In this document: one piece after another, positions 2,310 to 6,682 of the stretch
How the letters are laid out: every line of letters starts with the position of its first letter
Position numbering within the stretch: position 1 is the first letter of the stretch
Assembly: GCF_017308985.1 (NCBI RefSeq)
Contig: NZ_JADWPE010000002.1
Location: forward strand, 248,001-312,000
Reading direction: 5' to 3'
Origin: Lysobacter changpingensis
GTDB taxonomy: Bacteria; Pseudomonadota; Gammaproteobacteria; Xanthomonadales; Xanthomonadaceae
DNA: 64,000 nucleotides
Translations under genes and position numbers: made by a program
The notes under the pieces: model-generated
What the model saw: the letters and a program-made list of their open reading frames with translations, nothing else
Told to the model about the DNA's origin: nothing
Database searches by the model: none

Positions 2310-4001
2310 TCACGCGTTCGCCGCCTCGTGGACGTCCGCCACCGCCCGCCCGGACGGGTCGGCCATCTTCGCGAAGGCCGCGTCCCACGCGATCGCCACC
2401 GGCGACGAGCACGCGATCGACTTCCCGCCCGGCACCGTCTGCGCGCAGGCCACGCCCGGGAAGAACTGCTCGAAGATGTGGCGGTAGAGGTATGCCTCCT
2501 TCGTCTGCGGCGGGTTCACCGGGAAGCGGCTGGCCGCCGCCGCGAACACGCGGTCGCTCACCTGCGCTTCCGCATGCGCCTTCAGCCCGTCGATCCAGCC
2601 ATAGCCGACGCCATCGCTGAATTGCTCCTTCTGCCGCCACAGGATCGAATCCGGCAGGTAGCCCTCGAACGCCTCGCGCAGGATCGCCTTCTCGATCGAG
2701 CGGCCGTTCGGCCCCTTGCGCACCATCTTGTGCGCCGCGTCCATGCGCATGGCGACGTTGAGGAATTCGACGTCGAGGAACGGCACGCGCGGCTCCACGC
2801 CCCACGCCATCATCGACTTGTTCGCACGCAGGCAGTCGTAGTTGTGCAGCGCGTCGAGCTTGCGCACGGTTTCCTCGTGGAATTCGCGGGCGTCCGGCGC
2901 CTTGTGGAAGTAGAGGTAACCGCCGAACACCTCGTCGCTGCCCTCGCCCGAGAGCACCATCTTCACGCCCATCGCCTTGATGCGTCGCGCGAGCAGGAAC
3001 ATCGGCGTGGACGCGCGGATCGTCGTGACGTCGAAGGTTTCGATGTGGCGGATCACCTCCGGCAACGCATCGAGGCCTTCCTCGAAGGTGTAGGTGAAGC
3101 CGTGATGCACGGTGCCCAGCGCCTTCGCCGCGATTTCGGCGGCGGCCAGGTCGGGCGAACCCTCCAGCCCGATCGCGAAGGAATGCAGGCGCGGCCACCA
3201 CGCTTCGGTAGTGTCGTCGTCCTCCACGCGCTTGCGGGCGAAGCGCGCGGCCACCGCGGCGACAAGCGAGGAATCCAGGCCGCCGGAGAGCAGCACGCCA
3301 TACGGCACGTCGCTCATCAGCTGGCGATGCACGGCGCGTTCGAAGGCTTCACGCAGCTCCTGCTTCGACACCTCCACGCCTTCGGTCGCCGCGTGGTCGC
3401 GCCAGGGGCGCTGGTAATAGCGCACGGGTTCGCCGCGTTCGCTGTCGTAGTAATGCCCGGGCGGGAACTGCGCGACGTCGGCGCAGGTGTCGGCCAGCGC
3501 CTTCATCTCGGAGGCGACGCACAGGCGGCCGTCGCGATCGTGGCCCCAGTACAGCGGGCACACGCCGATGGGATCGCGTGCGATGAGGACCCGTCCGCGC
3601 GCGCGGTCCCACAGCGCGAAGGCGAAGATGCCGTTCAATTCGCCGAGCCACTCGCCGACGTCCTCGCGCTGGCGGTACAGGGCGTTGATGACCTCGCAGT
3701 CCGAACCGGTCTGGAACGCGTACGGCTGCGCCAGCGCCTGCTCCAGTTCGCGGTGGTTGTAGATCTCGCCGTTGACCGCCAGCGCGAGTTCGCCGTCGGC
3801 CGAGCGCAGCGGCTGCGAACCACCGGCGGGATCGACGATGGCCAGCCGCTCGTGCACCAGGATCGCGCCGTCGTCGAGGTGGACGCCGCTCCAGTCAGGG
3901 CCGCGATGGCGCTGGCGTTGCGAGAGTTCCAGCGCACGGCGGCGCAGGGCCTGCACGTCGTCGCCGGGTTGGAGGCCGAAGATGCCGAGGATGGAACACA
4001 T
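2310..4001 (-). CDS. asnB: Asparagine synthetase B (glutamine-hydrolysing)
   Basis: A 563-residue cytoplasmic enzyme making asparagine from aspartate, ATP and glutamine. The N-terminus MCSILGIFG gives the Cys2 nucleophile of the class II glutaminase domain (about residues 2-190). The synthetase domain follows with the PP-loop SGGLDSS near residue 240. The length matches E. coli AsnB (554). The start at 4001 has AGGAG eight bases upstream. Between this start and the divergent acylase gene lie a predicted Asn-rich leader peptide and a Rho-independent terminator. Transcription is therefore predicted to be attenuated when charged tRNA-Asn is plentiful (see the attenuator entries). Confidence 0.96.
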   Translation of the reverse strand: MCSILGIFGLQPGDDVQALRRRALELSQRQRHRGPDWSGVHLDDGAILVHERLAIVDPAGGSQPLRSADGELALAVNGEIYNHRELEQALAQPYAFQTGSDCEVINALYRQREDVGEWLGELNGIFAFALWDRARGRVLIARDPIGVCPLYWGHDRDGRLCVASEMKALADTCADVAQFPPGHYYDSERGEPVRYYQRPWRDHAATEGVEVSKQELREAFERAVHRQLMSDVPYGVLLSGGLDSSLVAAVAARFARKRVEDDDTTEAWWPRLHSFAIGLEGSPDLAAAEIAAKALGTVHHGFTYTFEEGLDALPEVIRHIETFDVTTIRASTPMFLLARRIKAMGVKMVLSGEGSDEVFGGYLYFHKAPDAREFHEETVRKLDALHNYDCLRANKSMMAWGVEPRVPFLDVEFLNVAMRMDAAHKMVRKGPNGRSIEKAILREAFEGYLPDSILWRQKEQFSDGVGYGWIDGLKAHAEAQVSDRVFAAAASRFPVNPPQTKEAYLYRHIFEQFFPGVACAQTVPGGKSIACSSPVAIAWDAAFAKMADPSGRAVADVHEAANA

Positions 4002-4043
4002 GACGATGACTCCTGGGGTCGGGGGTGGGGTTTTCGGGAGGAC

Positions 4044-4075
4044 AAAAACAAAAAACCCGCGCTTTGCGGCGCGGG
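4044..4075 (-). terminator. Intrinsic terminator in the asnB leader (attenuator)
   Basis: On the minus strand GCCCGCGC, a CGCAAA loop and GCGCGGG form a 7-bp GC stem (4069-4075 with 4056-4062). It is followed directly by TTTTTTGTTTTT (4055-4044). It lies between the leader-peptide stop and the asnB start, so it would end transcription before asnB unless an alternative fold forms. Confidence 0.9.
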
Positions 4076-4170
4076 CTTCGTGGGTGCTCAGTGCGGTTAC
4101 AACGCGCTAATCACCGGCCCGCGGGAGGCTGGCGTTATTGCGGTTGTTGTTGTTCAGGCCCTGCGCGGGC
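4056..4170 (-). promoter_or_regulatory. Predicted four-segment Asn attenuator of asnB
   Basis: Four short minus-strand segments can pair alternatively. Segment 1 (4170-4164) and segment 3 (4076-4070) both read GCCCGCG. Segment 2 (4123-4117) reads CGCGGGC and can pair with either. Segment 4 (4062-4056) completes the terminator with segment 3. The Asn codons (4154-4134) lie between segments 1 and 2, and segment 2 ends eight bases before the leader stop codon. A ribosome stalled on Asn codons would cover segment 1 and free segment 2 to sequester segment 3 (read-through). A ribosome at the stop would cover segment 2 and allow the terminator. The pairing is seen in the sequence; the mechanism is inferred from trp/his-type attenuators. 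Confidence 0.75.
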
Positions 4171-4226
4171 GCGCCGCCGCGCAGGGCGGCAGTGGCGGCG
4201 TAGGCGGTGGCCTGGACGAAGGTCAT
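4107..4226 (-). CDS. Asn-rich leader peptide upstream of asnB
   Basis: A 39-codon frame from ATG (4226) to TAG (4107). Residues 25-31 read NNNNRNN, six asparagines in seven codons, five AAC and one AAT. Such a run is very improbable in this GC-rich genome unless selected. It lies 105 bases upstream of asnB on the same strand, with a terminator in between, the layout of amino-acid-operon leader peptides. There is no convincing Shine-Dalgarno. A weak -10-like CACGAT ends six bases before the ATG with TTGCAA 17 bases further up, so leaderless translation is possible. The rest of the peptide is Ala/Gly-rich and probably has no function of its own. Confidence 0.75.
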   Translation of the reverse strand: MTFVQATAYAATAALRGGAPAQGLNNNNRNNASLPRAGD

Positions 4227-4232
4227 GGCTCG

Positions 4233-4261
4233 ATCGTGCAAGAGGTCGGGCCCGCTTGCAA
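4233..4261 (-). promoter_or_regulatory. Candidate sigma70 promoter for the asn leader and asnB
   Basis: TTGCAA (4261-4256) and CACGAT (4238-4233) are separated by 17 bases on the minus strand. The -10 is poor (three of six consensus bases). If used, transcription would begin at or next to the leader-peptide ATG. Confidence 0.35.
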
Positions 4262-4333
4262 GGGGACATCCGCCCGCCGGCGCCGCCGTTCATCGGATAA
4301 GCTCGGCGCGGGGACACCACAGGCGACAGGCCC

Positions 4334-6682
4334 ATGACGAAGTGGATCAGGCGCGTGCTCGTCGCGCTGGTACTGGTACTGCTGGCGGCGGTGCTCGCCG
4401 GCTGGTGGCTGATGCGCGGCAGCCTGCCGCGGCTCGACGGCGAACTCGCCCTGCCCGGCCTGTCGGCCCCGGTGACGGTCCAGCGCGATGCGAACGGCGT
4501 GGTCACGGTCGATGCGGCCAACGAGAACGACGCCATGCGCGCGCTCGGCTACGTGCACGCGCAGGAACGCTATTTCGAGATGGACCTGCTGCGGCGCACG
4601 GCCGCGGGCGAACTGGCCGCGCTGTTCGGGCCCGTCGCCATCGACACGGACAAGCGGCACCGCGTGCACCGCATGCGCGCGCGCGTGATGCAGCACATGG
4701 ACGCGATCCTGGGCGACAAGCGCGGGATGGCCCAGGCGTACGTCGATGGCGTCAACGCCGGACGCGCCGCGCTGAAGGTGCGGCCGTGGCCCTACCTGCT
4801 TCTGCGCACGCAGCCCGAGCCTTGGACGCTGGCCGACTCGGCGCTGACCGGCTACGCGATGTATTTCGACCTGCAGGACGCGCAGAACGAGCGCGAACTG
4901 GCGATGTGGCGCCTTCGTCCGCATCTGCCGCCGGCGCTGTTCGCGCTGCTCGCGCACGACGGCACGAGCTGGGATGCGCCACTCGCCGGCCGCCCGCGCG
5001 GCGACGCGACGCTGCCCGACGCCTCGACCGTCGACCTGCGCACGCTGCCGATGCGGGAAGGGTCGCGCCCGGCCGACGTACCCGAACGTTCCGATGTCGG
5101 CAGCAACAATTTCGCCGTGTCCGGCCAGCTCACCGCCGACGGCCGCGCGATCGTCGCCGACGACATGCACCTGGGCCTGCGCGCACCGAACATCTGGTTC
5201 CGCGCGCGATTGCGTTATCCCGATCCGCGCGCCGACGGCGGTCGCGTCGATGCGAACGGCTTCACCCTGCCCGGCCTGCCGGCGCTGGTGGTCGGCAGCA
5301 ACGGGCACGTCGCGTGGGGTTTCACCAACAGCTACGGCGACTGGCTCGACTGGAAGCGCGTGGCCGATTGCGGCGAGAAGACCTGCGCGGGCGCGACGCG
5401 CAACATCGAGATCATTCGCGTGGCGGGAAGCGACGACGTCGAGTTCCCGGTGGACGAAACCGCGTGGGGCCCGATCCTGCACCGCGAACGCGACGGCAGC
5501 GGCCTCGCGCTGCGCTGGATCGCCCACCGGCCCGGCTCGATGAACCTCGGCCTTTCCGAATTCCTGCACGCGCGCTCGCTCGACGACGCGCTCGCGATGG
5601 CCGATCGCACGGCGATTCCCGCGCAGAACCTCGCCATCGGCGACTCGCAGGGGCGCATCACCTGGCGCCTGCTCGGCCCGATGCCGCAGCGTGGGGCCGG
5701 TTGCGATGCGACGCAGGTCGTCGAACCCGACGCCTGCGCGCCGTGGCCGATCACCACCGCGCACGGCACCGCGCTGCCGATCGGCACGGTGCAGCGCCTG
5801 TGGACGGCGAATTCGCGCGTGGTCGATGGAACGCTGCTGTCGCGCGTGGGCGATGGCGGTTACGCCAACGGCGCGCGCGCGAAGCAGATCCGCGACGGCC
5901 TGTTCGCGAAGGATCGTTTCGCCGAACGCGACCTGCTCGCGATCCAGCTCGACGATCGCGCCCTGTTCCTGCAGCGGTGGTGGACGTTGCTGCGCGAACG
6001 CGATGGCGTTGCGAACACGCCCGCGCTACACGAGCTCGCGGTCGCCGCATCCACGTGGCAGGGTCGCGCGAGTGCGGACTCGACGAGTTACCGCATCGTG
6101 CGCGCGTGGCGTCTCGCGGTGCACGACCGCCTGCTCGACGGCCTGACCGCGCCCGCGCATGCCGCGCTGGGTGAGGCGTTCGAAATGCCGAACCTTTCGC
6201 ATTTCGAAGGCGTTGCGTGGCCGCTGGTCACGCAGCGTCCGGCGAACCTGCTGCCGCGCCGGTTCGCGTCGTGGGACGCGTTGTTCGAGGACGCCGCACG
6301 CGAAGTGCGCGACGAACTGGCGAAGAGCGGCCCGATCGCGCAGCGCACCTGGGGCGAGCGCAACACCGCGCGCATCTGCCATCCGCTGTGGCGTGCGTTG
6401 CCCGGTTTCCTCGAGCCGCAGCTGTGCATGCCCGCCGACGAACTGCCCGGCGACAGCGCCATGCCGCGCGTGCAGGGACCGGAGTTCGGCGCCTCCGAGC
6501 GCATGGTCGTGGCGCCGGGCCACGAGGCCGACGGAATCATCCACATGCCGGGCGGACAGAGCGGGCATCCGATGTCGCCGTTCTGGGGCGCGGGGCACGA
6601 GGATTGGGTGCAGGGACGGCCGACGCCGTTCCTGCCGGGCGAGACGCGTTACACGATGAAGCTGGTGCCGGGGAACGGCTGA
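4334..6682 (+). CDS. Penicillin acylase family N-terminal-nucleophile hydrolase
   Basis: A 782-residue amidase precursor of the penicillin G acylase/acyl-homoserine-lactone acylase superfamily. It would be processed into small and large chains. An N-terminal hydrophobic segment (about residues 7-27) indicates export or anchoring to the periplasmic side. The alpha-chain part contains LGYVHAQERYFEMDLLRR (from about 71). The predicted autocatalytic site is Gly256-Ser257-Asn-Asn, giving an N-terminal Ser nucleophile for the beta chain, followed by DDMHLGLRAPNIW. Later segments GHVAWGFTNS and TANSR are typical of the fold. The substrate cannot be deduced; beta-lactams, acyl-homoserine lactones or other amides are possible. 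It is divergent from the asnB leader. Confidence 0.88.
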   Translation: MTKWIRRVLVALVLVLLAAVLAGWWLMRGSLPRLDGELALPGLSAPVTVQRDANGVVTVDAANENDAMRALGYVHAQERYFEMDLLRRTAAGELAALFGPVAIDTDKRHRVHRMRARVMQHMDAILGDKRGMAQAYVDGVNAGRAALKVRPWPYLLLRTQPEPWTLADSALTGYAMYFDLQDAQNERELAMWRLRPHLPPALFALLAHDGTSWDAPLAGRPRGDATLPDASTVDLRTLPMREGSRPADVPERSDVGSNNFAVSGQLTADGRAIVADDMHLGLRAPNIWFRARLRYPDPRADGGRVDANGFTLPGLPALVVGSNGHVAWGFTNSYGDWLDWKRVADCGEKTCAGATRNIEIIRVAGSDDVEFPVDETAWGPILHRERDGSGLALRWIAHRPGSMNLGLSEFLHARSLDDALAMADRTAIPAQNLAIGDSQGRITWRLLGPMPQRGAGCDATQVVEPDACAPWPITTAHGTALPIGTVQRLWTANSRVVDGTLLSRVGDGGYANGARAKQIRDGLFAKDRFAERDLLAIQLDDRALFLQRWWTLLRERDGVANTPALHELAVAASTWQGRASADSTSYRIVRAWRLAVHDRLLDGLTAPAHAALGEAFEMPNLSHFEGVAWPLVTQRPANLLPRRFASWDALFEDAAREVRDELAKSGPIAQRTWGERNTARICHPLWRALPGFLEPQLCMPADELPGDSAMPRVQGPEFGASERMVVAPGHEADGIIHMPGGQSGHPMSPFWGAGHEDWVQGRPTPFLPGETRYTMKLVPGNG

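Follow-up and report, generated by a model that had tools for sequence, protein, structure and literature searches.

The leader of asnB in Lysobacter changpingensis is in all probability a ribosome-mediated transcription attenuator that would sense asparagine through Asn-tRNA(Asn), a reading which, from sequence and comparison, we hold at a probability of about 0.9. The asnB leaders compared here, including that of the window (the whole 64,000-nucleotide stretch of DNA that was analyzed), show an Asn-codon frame, an antiterminator pairing (2:3) that co-varies between genomes, an intrinsic terminator, a fixed spacing between the leader stop and that terminator, and a promoter in a characteristic position. 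The elements in the window are as follows.

4261-4256, minus: predicted -35 element TTGCAA, the top-scoring sigma70-like site upstream of the leader
4238-4233, minus: predicted -10 element CACGAT, after a 17-nt spacer, its end 6 nt 5' of the leader ATG
4226-4107, minus: leader peptide frame, 39 codons plus TAG stop, peptide MTFVQATAYAATAALRGGAPAQGLNNNNRNNASLPRAGD; frame conserved
4170-4164, minus: segment 1, GCCCGCG, a possible partner of segment 2, without general conservation
4154-4134, minus: putative regulatory Asn codons AAC AAC AAC AAC CGC AAT AAC (NNNNRNN, residues 25-31)
4123-4117, minus: segment 2 core, CGCGGGC, antiterminator 5' arm, within the final leader codons
4079-4052, minus: intrinsic terminator hairpin, then TTGTTTTTGT
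4076-4070, minus: segment 3 core, GCCCGCG, common to antiterminator and terminator
4062-4056, minus: segment 4 core, GCGCGGG, terminator 3' arm
4014-4010, minus: Shine-Dalgarno-like AGGAG of asnB
4001-2310, minus: asnB, glutamine-hydrolysing asparagine synthase B (NF006949 and PF00733), the gene proposed to be controlled

An earlier note on this DNA had recorded the frame, its NNNNRNN run and the four 7-mers, each of which was confirmed at its position in the sequence, and the GC terminator with a T run that it described is a stem of 11 pairs, 7 of them G-C, with a T-rich tail. The hairpin alone would be weak evidence, because shuffled versions of the 1.5 kb scanned average 0.6 such sites. The gene upstream (4334-6682, penicillin amidase family) runs divergently from asnB; consequently, the terminator serves no other gene on the asnB strand, and we rejected its assignment to a neighboring gene. 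In a profile search, the asnB product scored 861.5 bits against NF006949 (cut-off 499) and also matched PF00733, and the leader peptide had no Pfam or NCBIfam family match at E 0.001. Downstream of asnB on the minus strand lie a PLP enzyme (Beta_elim_lyase, threonine-aldolase-like; 1073-2242) and a bacterioferritin (488-1024).

In the proposed mechanism, transcription would start at or beside the leader ATG and the leader peptide would be read from a leaderless message. At low levels of Asn-tRNA, the ribosome would stall at the Asn codons and leave segment 2 free to pair with segment 3 once the latter is made, and RNA polymerase would then continue into asnB. When Asn-tRNA is plentiful, the ribosome would reach the TAG and cover segment 2, in which case the 3:4 terminator would form and transcription would stop. 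The arrangement of these elements is our basis for inferring ribosome stalling, antitermination, a response to asparagine, and the precise point of transcription start.

The comparison covered 190 upstream regions in total, among them 80 asnB loci of named genomes, which were the best 80 of at least 590 relatives, and 80 further upstream stretches from a search of 200 genomes of the order, 160 of which had a match. Raw counts include duplicates for genomes present in both collections (e.g., L007 and L098), and a non-redundant set of 61 representative loci was defined by shared 6-mers. Five loci (L014, L027, L044, L047, and L049) were excluded from the 105 Lysobacterales-type loci and counted among the 85 others. 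We scanned the 300 nt immediately 5' of asnB for short frames in which a span of 8 residues holds at least 4, 5, or 6 Asn. Such frames were found at 95, 79, and 37 of the 105 Lysobacterales-type loci, respectively, against 0, 0, and 0 on the antisense strand of the same regions and 3, 0, and 0 in the other 85 asnB regions. Runs of four AAY codons are also rare, with two in the 4.06-Mb genome, one of them in this leader. These counts and the genome-wide rarity led us to reject a chance Asn run. The second run lies at G000:C6:107126-107137 (L265), where a scan found no short Asn frame.

By a more lenient rule (at least 3 Asn in 8), an Asn frame precedes asnB in 33/34 genomes of the window's family, 28/29 of a second, and 3/3 of a third, which bears out the expectation in the earlier note that an Asn-run frame would be conserved upstream of this gene. 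The first two families are presumably Xanthomonadaceae and Rhodanobacteraceae. A predicted frame carrying codons for the product amino acid, as belongs to a ribosome-mediated attenuator, is thus present and conserved in three families. Two other families of the order gave 1/14 (the family of G082) and 0/27, the latter becoming 1/27 under the bare rule, as L166 (3 of 8 Asn, without a terminator) was set negative by hand; the frame was absent from all three single-genome families (0/3). Across 30 loci of G082's family, 4 of 8 Asn is reached in G082 alone, with 3 of 8 in L223. Leader-bearing named loci include Xanthomonas, Stenotrophomonas, Pseudoxanthomonas, Lysobacter, Luteimonas, Thermomonas, and Arenimonas, as well as Dyella, Rhodanobacter, Fulvimonas, and Frateuria.

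At five loci (L014, L027, L044, L153, and L154), asnB has no leader. The AsnB proteins of the first three, whose records are labeled Holophagales, Rhodococcus, and Deltaproteobacteria, are 76-86% identical to that of the window, and these loci represent either gene transfer or mislabeled contigs. Among 114 genomes of the class, sampled mostly at one per family, only two, both from the window's family, had a full-length close AsnB, and this sampling therefore does not extend the distribution. The genome's own asnB-like paralogues, asnS, and hisG (L002, L004, L085, and L266) were scanned for short frames in which Asn (or His in the case of hisG) makes up at least 4 of 8 residues, and none was found.

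To evaluate the 2:3 pairing, we computed the best duplex of the terminator 5' arm with the leader region that begins at the first Asn codon and runs slightly beyond the leader stop. Over the 105 loci, the mean energy was -22.3 kcal/mol for the loci's own sequences versus -12.7 kcal/mol for shuffled ones; no more than 2/50 shuffles were as good at 86/105 loci (1/50 in the window), and the remaining 19/105 were not clearly better than shuffles (more than 2/50 as good). Exchanging partners among the 61 non-redundant loci gave -21.74 kcal/mol for own pairs against -18.86 (sd 0.42) for permuted ones, with 0/10,000 permutations as good, and the same exchange had no effect on mock regions taken before the Asn codons or after the terminator. 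The covariation of this pairing, which the earlier note had proposed to look for, was therefore recovered. An anchored test on nine columns flanking the conserved core, run on 58/61 loci (L009, L017, and L024 are without the core), found 242/522 own cells paired, whereas 2,000 permutations averaged 196 and never exceeded 220; four of the nine columns (offsets -1, 5, 7, and 8) were individually significant and five were not. At L018 and L115, GCAGGCC near the leader stop is matched in the terminator arm by a perfect reverse complement, GGCCTGC, the usual form elsewhere being GCGGGC with GCCCGC; the lowest-energy duplex of these two loci uses another register. The 3' end of the segment-2 side and the stop codon that follows it are separated by a median of 4 nt, which amounts to a terminator-excluding antiterminator that a ribosome at the stop could cover, as in a ribosome-mediated attenuator.

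In the window itself, predicted folding forms the CGCGGGC:GCCCGCG helix before segment 4 is made and the terminator afterwards. The antiterminator stretch scores modestly there (z -1.3, with 20/200 shuffles as good), and the fold of the whole leader has z -2.1. Two known attenuators of Escherichia coli were put through the duplex test as well: thrL gave a result similar to that of the asnB leaders (0/200 shuffles as good), and hisL, a positive control, scored weakly (31/200), perhaps due to a tested stretch that holds only part of its antiterminator.

A terminator with a T tail follows the frame at 105/110 loci with at least 3 Asn in 8; it is absent from L028, L030, L068, L078, and L166, and of these, L068 and L078 are loci that satisfy the lenient 3-of-8 rule. 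An intrinsic terminator thus stands between the leader frame and the first gene, the position it takes in ribosome-mediated attenuators. Each of the 12 stem positions counted is filled by several kinds of base pair. The distance from the leader stop to the terminator is 19-36 nt (median 25), and that from the stop to asnB varies from 78 to 280. At L028 and L030, an Asn frame precedes asnB and the GC hairpin has no T run by the criterion used; a different terminator may be in use at these loci.

These features bear on the possibility that the Asn-rich frame encodes a functional small protein lying near a terminator, with any effect of its translation on asnB being incidental. The frame and its start are conserved, as such a protein would require, and the accessible text of PMC7298713 reports that the trpL peptide of Sinorhizobium meliloti acts in trans. 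However, outside the Asn cluster the peptide differs by clade, with endings such as ASLPRAGD, LRANNRARPMRDCD, and ANRWRARA; the DNA encoding these variable endings contains the pairing partner of the terminator arm, and the stop-to-terminator distance is confined. A small protein as the whole explanation is consequently very unlikely.

Simple folding of the 61 loci clarifies how attenuation would depend on timing. When a ribosome occupies the first Asn codon before segment 4 has been transcribed, segment 3 finds an upstream partner in 61/61, and with the ribosome at the stop, the 3:4 terminator forms in 61/61. In the finished RNA, the terminator is the lowest-energy fold despite a stalled ribosome in 47/61, the window included, so that antitermination must depend on the order of folding. 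The 1:2 helix behaves differently from the other two pairings: own partners average -20.14 versus -19.53 kcal/mol for permuted ones, 182/10,000 permutations are as good, and only 6/61 loci clearly beat shuffles. A protector helix as a conserved element is therefore not supported, and segment 1 does not appear to be a general feature. Thus, of the alternative pairings proposed at the outset, 2:3 and the 3:4 terminator are conserved, and 1:2 is weakly supported. With the conserved Asn frame and the 2:3 covariation, the two conserved pairings favor the attenuator reading first suggested for this stretch.

The position of the promoter is a further feature of these leaders, and one that the earlier note missed. 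In 89/102 leaders (L185, L063, and L048 were left out, the last being kept in the 61-locus set), the best sigma70-like promoter, usually of the form TTGCNN with a spacer of 17 or 18 nt, ends 6-7 nt before the in-frame leader start codon, as compared with 1.2 on average and at most 3 of 102 in shuffled upstream regions. Since a start 6-7 nt after the -10 element is the first base of the leader frame, the leader mRNA is predicted to be leaderless, and in the window, transcription would start at or next to the A of the leader ATG. A strict consensus scan of 3500-5000 returned no promoter-like site and missed the leader promoter too; its elements are weak by consensus, and the case for it in the window consequently rests on the conserved position. 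A Shine-Dalgarno-like tetramer occurs upstream of the leader start in 11/50 representatives with the 6-7 nt spacing, where AGGA can belong to the -10 element, and before asnB in 56/60 representatives.

A promoter upstream of a terminator could also make a separate small RNA, with the hairpin as its ordinary terminator and asnB transcribed from its own promoter downstream. The terminator does lie between the predicted promoter and asnB, and the strict scan speaks neither way on this point because it missed the leader promoter as well, but such an arrangement leaves unexplained both the Asn codons and the antiterminator arm that co-evolves with the terminator; we regard it as slightly less probable still than a functional small protein.

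Attenuation by the asnB leader, our preferred reading, also fits the asparagine physiology of the organism. The genome, estimated to be 100% complete, encodes an AsnRS above the curated cut-off and has no match to GatB or AsnA. Because AsnRS is present and the other two were not found, Asn-tRNA should be made from free asparagine and should report it. AsnB is the likely asparagine synthase of the genome, in which more distant AsnB-like genes are also present, and an Asn-codon sensor on asnB makes sense in this setting.

The Asn codons of the leaders at 103 loci comprise 318 AAC and 313 AAT (631 in total), and such similar usage with Asn retained is as expected if selection acts on the amino acid. 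The AAT share (313/631) exceeds that in 69 asnB bodies (73/608; Fisher odds ratio, 7.2), and this excess may delay translation or prevent the run from folding. Leaders so rich in AAT could slow reading while asparagine is not limiting, and leaderless initiation may be sensitive to ribosome state, PMC7298713 in its accessible part citing preferential translation under stress. Attenuation might accordingly be real and yet answer to general slow translation or another stress in place of Asn-tRNA charging, or the control might be partly one of asnB translation. Against this, the conserved codons specify the amino acid that the controlled gene produces, AsnRS provides the only path to Asn-tRNA found in the genome, and the hairpin, with its T tail, is located 5' of the asnB Shine-Dalgarno sequence. 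A signal other than asparagine, or partly translational control, is as improbable as the separate small RNA.

As an asparagine attenuator, the leader resembles thrL of E. coli and attenuators of the trp and his type, with codons for the product amino acid, an antiterminator arm near the leader stop, and a GC-rich terminator with a T run; it differs from them in being asparagine specific and in having a promoter that adjoins the leader start codon. In Firmicutes, T-box riboswitches sense the charging of tRNA(Asn) at asparagine genes, and the RNA binds the tRNA directly, without a leader peptide. The signal and the genes are therefore alike in the two cases, whereas the asnB leader has a leader peptide. 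No Rfam family, T-box covariance models included, reached its cut-off in the window, and in the seven leader loci searched, Rfam leader families gave no more than sub-threshold matches. Against a cut-off of 55 bits, Thr_leader scored 30.9 at L119 and 28.9 at L120, and Trp_leader, with a cut-off of 41, scored 30.6 at L210, values that are resemblance and not membership.

Closer in its start is trpL of S. meliloti, where the 5' end of the attenuator RNA is the ATG of the leader frame according to the accessible text of PMC7298713. That case concerns tryptophan, a 14-aa leader, and an alphaproteobacterium, and the start is stated there but predicted here. The ilvBNC attenuator of Corynebacterium (PMC10272879) likewise has a leader frame, an antiterminator, and a terminator, unlike the asnB leader in that it concerns branched-chain amino acids and Actinobacteria, and a work cited there announces in its title the formation of a leader peptide in the absence of a ribosome binding site. 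The available parts of PMC2965389, PMC3771888, PMC7298713, PMC1262725, PMC1183508, and PMC10272879 describe no Asn attenuator. Neither an Asn attenuator nor an asnB leader peptide was named in the titles and abstracts of the literature searched, in keeping with the earlier guess that an Asn version may be undescribed, and the surveys of Vitreschak 2004 and Lopatovskaya 2010, known by title, could contain one. The asnB leader appears to extend an established mechanism to a new amino acid and is conserved in at least three families.

Outside the main clade, there are instances that the first examination missed. Loci with an Asn leader and a terminator are G082 (= L185/L210), L199 (= L063), L233-L236, and L243. 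A Rubrivirga MAG (Rhodothermota) and five genomes of its order have short Asn-rich frames (e.g., LTNANRNP and LNVNNVNPNP) with a GC-rich terminator 22-25 nt downstream, before asnB. At the six Rhodothermota loci, 2:3 co-evolution was not detected (own -18.1 versus swapped -19.4 kcal/mol; 12 to 157 of 200 shuffles as good); since the pairing is not better than chance there, we claim only the Asn frame and the terminator. Eight other AsnB-type loci of the same order (L237-L242, L244, and L245) have no Asn leader near asnB. Asn-rich short frames lie far upstream at two of them, L240 (about -342) and L244 (about -369 from asnB). In G082 (L185), from another family of the window's order, a short Asn frame and a terminator occur with a 2:3 pairing matched by 2/50 shuffles.

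A quick tree built from 61 AsnB proteins puts the rows with a leader at three distinct positions and shows six label changes, some of which are the leader absences of L014, L027, and L044. By eye, the -10 element ends 17-27 nt before the start codon in L236, L243, and L185, unlike in Lysobacterales. An independent origin of the outside leaders is the simplest reading, transfer being the alternative. We give even odds to a broader proposal, namely that Asn attenuation of asnB arose at least three times (in Lysobacterales, in a Rhodothermota clade near Rubrivirga, and in one genome of another family of the order) and that the Lysobacterales leader frame became fused to its promoter, such that RNA polymerase would start on the leader AUG and the sensing ribosome would load on a leaderless 5' end without a Shine-Dalgarno step.

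If this broader proposal is true, there would be an order-wide class of leaderless attenuators, to which the Rhodothermota cases would add a phylum, and the separate lineages with Asn leaders would make attenuator evolution testable. The predicted leaderless start would offer a natural test of ribosome-polymerase coordination without a Shine-Dalgarno site. Attenuation by the asnB leader, if true, would extend the range of leader-peptide sensing to asparagine, in bacteria among which are Xanthomonas, Stenotrophomonas, Lysobacter, and Rhodanobacter, and it would explain how asparagine synthesis is coupled to Asn-tRNA charging in the Xanthomonas/Lysobacter group.
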